Positions 11,022 to 32,813 of a stretch of 39,528 nt of DNA are shown here, in pieces (the first letter of the stretch is position 1; each line of letters begins with the position of its first letter). The notes under the pieces were generated by a model. The model searched no databases. It was not told the DNA's origin and saw nothing but the letters and a program-made list of their open reading frames with translations. The position numbers and the translations under genes are program-made. Origin of the DNA: Microcaldota archaeon (GTDB lineage: Archaea > Micrarchaeota > Micrarchaeia > Micrarchaeales > CABMGC01); contig DAHUYR010000027.1 in NCBI GenBank assembly GCA_027315135.1, positions 1 to 39,528 on the forward strand, given 5' to 3'.

Positions 11022-11141
11022 GGCGGGGTAGCTCAGCCTGGTTAGAGCGCTAGACTCATATGCATAGCATGATGAGTAATGAGCCTTTAGGCTATGACCT
11101 TAGAAATCTAGAGATCGGGTGTTCAAATCTCCCTCCCGCCA
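11022..11141 (+). tRNA. tRNA-Met(CAT), elongator-type (or Ile2), with intron of about 45 nt at 11061..11105 (37/38)
   Basis: GGCGGGG acceptor/TCCCGCC; CTAGA-CTCATA...A-TCTAG anticodon arm interrupted after position 37; GTTCAAATC T-loop. Confidence 0.9.
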
Positions 11142-17818: not shown

Positions 17819-17958
17819 TGGGGTTGCCGGGATTTGAACCCGGACTTGCAGGTTACTTCATATTTATTCGGTACTTCCAGATCCTCATCATTGCCCAAAG
17901 GCTCATTGGATTATAAACATCTGGAGCCTGCCGCGCTGCCAAGTTACACAACAACCCC
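17819..17958 (-). tRNA. tRNA-Trp(CCA) with about 67-nt insertion at 17854..17920 (37/38; exact boundaries uncertain)
   Basis: GGGGTTG/CAACCCC acceptor, GCAGG-CTCCAG...A-CCTGC anticodon arm interrupted, CCGGG-TTCAAAT-CCCGG T-arm, A73. Confidence 0.9.
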
Positions 17959-31165: not shown

Positions 31166-32605
31166 TTATCCTTTTATAACTGCTATTGGCACGTTCCTTG
31201 AAACCGGAACCGCAAGCTCTGCACCTTTGACAATCCTTATCACTTCATCAATGTCTTTGTAGACCCACTCTGACTCCTCGCTCACGAGCCTCTGGTCATG
31301 GACCCGCAGCTCTATATTTTTGCTCTTCATCGAAGACAGGGTTTTTTCCGCGCCAATCTCGCGTAATGCCTGGTGCCTTGACATGACTCTTCCGGCTCCA
31401 TGGCACGCTGAGCCCAACGTCTCTTTCATGGCTCCTTCAGCCCCAGCAAGGATGTAGCTCGCCGTTCCCATGCTTCCAGGTATCAGCACAGGCTGCCCAC
31501 ACTCCCTGTATGCTTCAGGTATCTCCTTCCTGCCCTTTGCAAAGGCTCTTGTAGCTCCCTTCCTGTGGACATATACTTTCTGCATATGCCCTTCTACCTT
31601 ATGCTCCTCAAGCTTTGCAATATTGTGCGAAAGGTCATAAAGCAGGCTCATGCCAAGTTCATCATGACTCTTGTTAAAGACCTTTGAGAAGCTCTCCCTT
31701 ATCATATGCGTTATCATTTCACGGTTTGCAAAAGCAAAATTGACGCCGCACTTCATCGCCTTCAGGTAATCATCTGCCTCCTTGCTCTTTACATGGGCGT
31801 AGCTAAGTTCAGGATCAACAATCTTTATGCCATTCCTTGCCTGATATTCTGCAAGCGTGCGCAGATAGTCACTACATATCTGGTGACCGAAGCCCCTTGA
31901 GCCGGTATGCACCATTATGACTATCTGTCCCTCGTAAATCCCATATGCTTTTGCAAGCTTTCCGTCAAATATGTTGCCTACTTTCTGTATCTCAAGGAAA
32001 TGGTTGCCAGCTCCAAGAGTGCCAAGCTGGTTCCTTCCCCTAGATTTTGCACGCTGGCTGACTTTGGAGAAATCTGCCCCTTGCATGCAGCCATTCTCCT
32101 CCATATGCTCTATGTCTTCATGAACTCCAAATCCCTTCTCAACAAGGTATGCTGCCCCTTCATGTGCCACCTTCTCAAGATCTGCGGGGTCAAAACCCAT
32201 CTTCAGCCTGCTATCAAGCCCGCTCGGAACGCTGGCGAAGATATGATCGGAGAGCTTCTTAATATTCTTCTTAATATCAGGCTCTTCAAGGTTGGTCCTT
32301 ATCACACGTATCCCGCAGTTAATATCGAATCCTATTGCTCCGGGAGAAATGATTCCCTCATCAGCATCAAAGCCTGCAACTCCTCCCACAGGAAAACCAT
32401 ATCCCTCATGCCCGTCAGGCATGACCATAACATTGCCGCGTATTCCCGGAAGCGTTGCCGCATTTGCAGCCTGCTGCATAGTTCTATCTTGCTTAAGGTT
32501 TTGCATAAGCTTTTCAGAAGAATAGACTGTGACTCCTGTATTCATCCCCAGCGCCTTATCCTTTGCGATTTCGAACCTGAAATCATCAATCCTTTCCACT
32601 TTCAT
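31166..32605 (-). CDS. rtcB: RNA-splicing ligase RtcB (tRNA ligase)
   Basis: MPDGHEGYGFPVGGVAGFD, GFDINCGIRVIRTNL, GTLGAGNHFLEIQ, MVHTGSRGFGHQ, GSACHGAGRVMSR. Confidence 0.97.
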   Translation of the reverse strand: MKVERIDDFRFEIAKDKALGMNTGVTVYSSEKLMQNLKQDRTMQQAANAATLPGIRGNVMVMPDGHEGYGFPVGGVAGFDADEGIISPGAIGFDINCGIRVIRTNLEEPDIKKNIKKLSDHIFASVPSGLDSRLKMGFDPADLEKVAHEGAAYLVEKGFGVHEDIEHMEENGCMQGADFSKVSQRAKSRGRNQLGTLGAGNHFLEIQKVGNIFDGKLAKAYGIYEGQIVIMVHTGSRGFGHQICSDYLRTLAEYQARNGIKIVDPELSYAHVKSKEADDYLKAMKCGVNFAFANREMITHMIRESFSKVFNKSHDELGMSLLYDLSHNIAKLEEHKVEGHMQKVYVHRKGATRAFAKGRKEIPEAYRECGQPVLIPGSMGTASYILAGAEGAMKETLGSACHGAGRVMSRHQALREIGAEKTLSSMKSKNIELRVHDQRLVSEESEWVYKDIDEVIRIVKGAELAVPVSRNVPIAVIKG

Positions 32606-32715: not shown

Positions 32716-32813
32716 GCAGGGATGGCGGAGCCTGGTCAAACGCGACAGACTCAAGATCTGTTGGCTTAGGCCTACGGGAGTTCAATAACACTGAACAAAT
32801 CTCTCTCCCTGCA
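32716..32813 (+). tRNA. tRNA-Leu(CAA) with 13-nt insert in the T-loop (32786..32798)
   Basis: GCAGGGA/TCCCTGC acceptor, ACAGA-CTCAAGA-TCTGT anticodon arm, long variable arm, GGGAG-TTCAA[TAACACTGAACAA]AT-CTCTC. Confidence 0.92.

Follow-up and report, generated by a model that had tools for sequence, protein, structure and literature searches.

Non-canonical introns of the bulge-helix-bulge (BHB) type have been described in archaeal tRNAs at positions 53/54, 56/57, 59/60 and others, mainly in Crenarchaeota/Thermoproteales, Thaumarchaeota and Nanoarchaeota (PMC4090602, PMC6379350). ARMAN-1 and ARMAN-2 are among the archaea with multiple tRNA introns, and splicing endonucleases (EndA) of the epsilon2 type were reported to cut the relaxed motifs BHL and hBH (PMC4033280); both motifs are reported substrates of the ARMAN epsilon2 enzyme (PMC4033280, PMC12397907). 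Permuted tRNAs of Thermofilum pendens have a BHB-processed junction in the T-loop, at 59/60 (PMC3218864). Here, we describe a T-loop insert in a tRNA-Leu(CAA) gene carried by a 39,528-nt stretch of DNA (the window), which is contig C13 of a Micrarchaeota (Micrarchaeaceae) metagenome-assembled genome (MAG; 807 kb, 88% complete). Like the non-canonical introns known from other archaea, this insert is short, of the BHB type and located in the T-loop, and the exon part of its motif comes from the tRNA itself. Its host belongs to the same phylum as ARMAN-1 and ARMAN-2, and its motif is also relaxed. It lies at nearly the same place as the Thermofilum pendens junction; in that organism the tRNA halves are permuted, whereas the window tRNA-Leu(CAA) is in the normal order with a 13-nt intron.

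The gene, located at 32716-32813 on the plus strand, encodes a class II tRNA-Leu with the anticodon CAA and a T-loop reading TTCAA-TAACACTGAACAA-AT; it is 98 nt long unspliced and 85 nt spliced. A cmscan search matched RF00005 at these positions (43.1 bits, E 4.8e-6), above the Rfam cut-off despite the insert. ARAGORN called three other tRNAs in the window and none at 32716-32813; after in silico excision of 32786-32798 it called tRNA-Leu(caa), and the acceptor, anticodon and T-stem pairs were all intact in the excised form. The initial annotation had proposed a tRNA-Leu(CAA) with a 13-nt insert whose removal restores the loop TTCAAAT. The sequence and coordinates it gave were exact, and both the ARAGORN call and the uninterrupted orthologues, which read TTCAAAT, bear out the restored loop. 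It had also named another intact tRNA-Leu(CAA) gene in the genome as an observation that would count against its reading; the order-wide pattern described below gave a single match in this 88%-complete MAG, with no second intact copy. The divergent neighbour of the tRNA gene is rtcB (31166-32605, minus strand; PF01139, E 1.5e-163), encoding the RNA ligase presumed to join the exons. It is intact within the window, and its product is 83-87% identical to RtcB of the four nearest Candidatus Micrarchaeota MAGs. A gene for a C39-like protein lies downstream of the tRNA, and the order rtcB, tRNA-Leu(CAA), C39-like gene is common to many Micrarchaeaceae loci. Loci L124-L127, from relatives of genus g2, have an intein-like LAGLIDADG insertion in rtcB directly after the DINC motif, which the window rtcB lacks.

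The sequence, the minimum free energy (MFE) fold and the relatives all support the same pairs in the precursor. The outer helix is formed by GGGA (32776-32779, tRNA positions 49-52) and TCTC (32800-32803, positions 60-63), and the central helix by the exon strand GTTC (32780-32783, positions 53-56) and the intron strand GAAC (32793-32796). These helices are accompanied by a 5' bulge AAT (32784-32786), with a predicted cut AA/T after 32785, and a 3' bulge AAA (32797-32799), with a predicted cut AA/A after 32798, so that the predicted intron TAACACTGAACAA spans 32786-32798. The MFE fold of the precursor has an energy of -34.7 kcal/mol (z -2.67), which 1 of 200 shuffles equalled. It includes the outer helix and, beyond the 3-nt AAA bulge, the central helix lengthened by one pair, and it places the 5' bulge within the terminal loop. 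The inner helix of the strict hBHBh' motif is absent from both the sequence and the MFE fold, a 6-nt apical loop following directly after the 5' bulge. The motif is therefore a relaxed one (hBH, or bulge-helix-loop). An inner helix is a trait of the strict BHB motif only, and the relaxed forms count as archaeal BHB tRNA introns. The motif had initially been described as an ideal BHB at about position 58/59. The outer helix, the 4-bp central helix and the 3-nt bulges of that description stand, and "ideal" does not, given the missing inner helix. Position 58/59 is the one given by the BHB cutting rule; the registers 56/57, 57/58 and 58/59 all restore TTCAAAT and are thus inseparable by sequence alone.

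The insert was compared across the order. A pattern covering the D-arm and anticodon-arm detected tRNA-Leu(CAA) in 113/118 genomes, nearly always as a single gene, and a second pattern spanning the T-arm matched in 119/128 genomes, from which 120 sequences were parsed. Of these 120 orthologues, 115 had an insert at the same T-loop site; the inserts measured 10-21 nt, most often 13, and comprised 104 distinct sequences. All 115 (that is, all 104 distinct introns) retained the 4-bp central helix with a 3-nt bulge at either end, and the outer helix was present in 114/115. The intron strand of the central helix read GAAC in 83 relatives, GAGC in 11, GAAT in 10, GGAC in 10 and GGGC in 1, each pairing with GTTC. 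The three bulge bases that the mature tRNA would keep were invariant (115/115): the AA of the 5' bulge and the third A of the 3' bulge. Those predicted to leave were variable, the third base of the 5' bulge being A or T and the intronic bases of the 3' bulge AA, AC or TA. Shuffled introns formed the full helix in a mean of 2.2 and a maximum of 8 of 104 cases, compared with 104/104 observed, although shared ancestry among the relatives means that the shuffle counts overstate independence. Sliding the partner strand by 1-3 nt left the central helix in 0 of 104. The apical loop was much more variable than the splicing pairs. Since the exon side of the central helix is invariant in tRNA-Leu, this support consists of pair retention and not of two-sided covariation. 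Judging from these alignments, the predicted splicing structure, rather than the intron sequence, is the conserved part, and the intron, boundaries and BHB pairs originally proposed for the window are upheld by its relatives.

The initial annotation had pointed to an ARMAN-like host and to an epsilon2-type EndA gene to be sought in the genome. The host is indeed a Micrarchaeota, and its EndA is close to that of ARMAN-2. The enzyme is encoded by a single ORF of 384 aa at L031:1204-2358 on the minus strand, and its residues 6-384 align with ARMAN-2 EndA (PDB 4fz2, 9w2k; E 4.1e-147). It has the size and architecture of the epsilon2 type, with one three-unit polypeptide in the ~390 aa class and full-length ARMAN-2 homology. 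The alignment with ARMAN-2 EndA shows conservation of the catalytic residues Y236, H251 and K282, of R275 and W384, which contact the bulges, and of Y160-K161 in the ARMAN-specific loop (ASL); the roles of these residues have been described (PMC6379350, PMC12397907). Long EndA ORFs of epsilon2 size (386-417 aa) were also found in members of the class with an uninterrupted tRNA-Leu(CAA), for example G220, G221 and G223. Endonuclease type as the sole cause of the intron was therefore rejected: the enzyme permits the intron and does not explain it.

We consider it very probable that the insert is a true tRNA intron of the non-canonical archaeal kind, removed by the epsilon2 EndA before RtcB joins the exons. 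On folding, the T-arm of the pre-tRNA would form the outer helix, followed by a 3-nt bulge, the 4-bp central helix and a loop. The endonuclease would then cut both bulges behind their second base (32785 and 32798), freeing a 13-nt RNA, and RtcB would ligate the exons to give the canonical T-loop TTCAAAT. The restored T-loop would allow folding of the tRNA elbow, T-loop modification and charging with leucine. We infer cleavage, ligation, the order of maturation and the action of both enzymes on the tRNA-Leu(CAA) precursor; the gene, its structure, its conservation, the uninterrupted orthologues and the two enzyme genes were observed directly.

If the insert were instead kept in the RNA, the product would be a tRNA that functions with an expanded T-loop, a reading with which the Rfam score of the unspliced form, still above the tRNA cut-off, agrees. 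We regard this as highly improbable: the splicing pairs are constant among inserts whose length (10-21 nt) and sequence (104 kinds) vary freely, the T-loop is normal in several relatives and outgroups, and an unspliced T-loop insert would break the universal tRNA elbow contact. The failure of ARAGORN to call the gene might also hint at a pseudogene or an assembly artefact. We give this next to no credence and rejected it, as the same arrangement recurs in well over 100 genomes that were binned independently; in addition, the gene is the sole tRNA-Leu(CAA) match in its genome, and excision leaves its acceptor, anticodon and T-stem pairs intact.

Within the order, an uninterrupted tRNA-Leu(CAA) was found in G006, G086 and G106 (one genus, g2), in G036 and in G038, all reading TTCAAAT, and in G028, which reads TTCGAAT. 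In the three g2 genomes (loci L125-L127) rtcB and the C39-like gene flank the uninterrupted gene, matching the gene order of the window, and their congener G041 has the intron in tRNA-Leu(CAA) at this locus. The same-class outgroups G220-G223 and G229 are also uninterrupted; G220-G223 read GAGAGTTCAAATCTCTC, which is the predicted spliced product of GAGAG-type relatives such as L061. The pattern gave no match in most other families of the class, so that the outgroup picture is drawn from few genomes. T50, which would break the outer helix of the precursor, is confined to uninterrupted copies, which are free of the 50-62 pairing constraint. The intronless loci L125-L127 also have a U50-U64 mismatch in the T-stem. 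The simplest reading of these sequences is that the ancestor of the order probably had the intron and that a few clean losses followed. The G028 copy, which differs at position 57, may represent a replacement instead of a clean loss.

T-loop inserts were also present in other tRNAs. In the window genome, tRNA-Arg(UCU) (G000:C40, minus strand, L146) contains a 14-nt insert, TTCAAA-AGACCTTCTGAAAA-T, and tRNA-Ala(GGC) (G000:C25, plus strand, L148) a 30-nt insert. Both use the register adjacent to that of tRNA-Leu, with TTCA/TGAA, a bulge AAT and position 59/60. Order-wide these inserts are patchy (34 parsed tRNA-Ala(GGC) and 15 parsed tRNA-Arg(UCU), with many others lacking one). In tRNA-Ala(GGC), base 57 and its intron partner were A57-T in 23 cases, G57-C in 7, G57-T in 2 and a G57-G mismatch in 2; as read from these sequences, the joint change at base 57 is two-sided support for a splicing helix in such T-loop introns. 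The window genome's own tRNA-Ala(GGC) intron has one mismatch in the splicing helix. In another family of the class (G210; L156:260-443), the T-loop of tRNA-Leu(CAA) holds an insert of roughly 100 nt, which is probably an independent gain. The window itself also encodes tRNA-Trp(CCA) (17819-17958, minus strand) and tRNA-Met(CAT) (11022-11141, plus strand), both with anticodon-loop introns containing a box C-like ATGATGA; we take the tRNA-Trp(CCA) intron to resemble a known archaeal guide-RNA intron.

As an addition to splicing, the intron might be retained as a shield of the T-loop and 3' gene end against site-specific integration, an idea credited in its general form to Randau and Soll in PMC4390854. 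Tyrosine integrases (PF00589) are common in the order (58/79 genomes), and 24 of 30 integrase loci examined had a tRNA within about 1.5 kb, giving 25 tRNAs in all. Most of the tyrosine integrase genes in L178-L207 adjoin a tRNA (Asn, Gly, Thr, Glu and others), which suggests many integrated elements. None of the 25 integrase-adjacent tRNAs was a tRNA-Leu(CAA) or had a T-loop intron, while several had anticodon-loop introns. With two or three T-loop-intron tRNAs per genome, however, we estimate that 0/25 would be expected by chance about 1 time in 5, and no integrase was found beside the uninterrupted tRNA-Leu(CAA) genes examined (L125-L127, L150). The census is consistent with a shield, is not significant, and 25 tRNAs are too few to argue from; we consider retention for this purpose quite unlikely.

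The T-loop intron is near-fixed in tRNA-Leu(CAA) across the order, in contrast to the patchy ones of tRNA-Arg(UCU) and tRNA-Ala(GGC). A broader and still doubtful reading, which we put forward tentatively, would make the T-loop of Micrarchaeales tRNAs a hotspot for introns, with the tRNA-Leu(CAA) intron kept by selection instead of being a drifting relic. The hotspot would owe its existence to the universal GTTC(R)A, through which each tRNA comes with the exon part of the motif in place. Possible benefits under selection would be, for example, the integration shield or compulsory splicing before the elbow folds.

The literature searched, which did not extend to the Fujishima 2011 survey of ARMAN tRNAs, contained no description of this tRNA-Leu(CAA) intron; an earlier listing is possible. 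Non-canonical T-loop introns were already known, and the order-wide tRNA-Leu(CAA) micro-intron is a new and well-supported example. It differs from those reported previously in being nearly fixed, at 10-21 nt, throughout one Micrarchaeota order in a tRNA with a single gene copy, and it puts T-loop BHB introns of such small size on record for a whole order. The locus also indicates that a standard tRNA finder can overlook an essential gene, as ARAGORN misses tRNA-Leu(CAA) and the Rfam model scores it lower. A single intron site represented in about 50 genera by 104 intron sequences, together with the rare clean losses and the uninterrupted outgroups, provides an uncommon natural series on which theories of tRNA introns can be tested, and the contrast between the near-fixed tRNA-Leu intron and the patchy tRNA-Arg(UCU) and tRNA-Ala(GGC) T-loop introns makes the persistence of tRNA introns testable.
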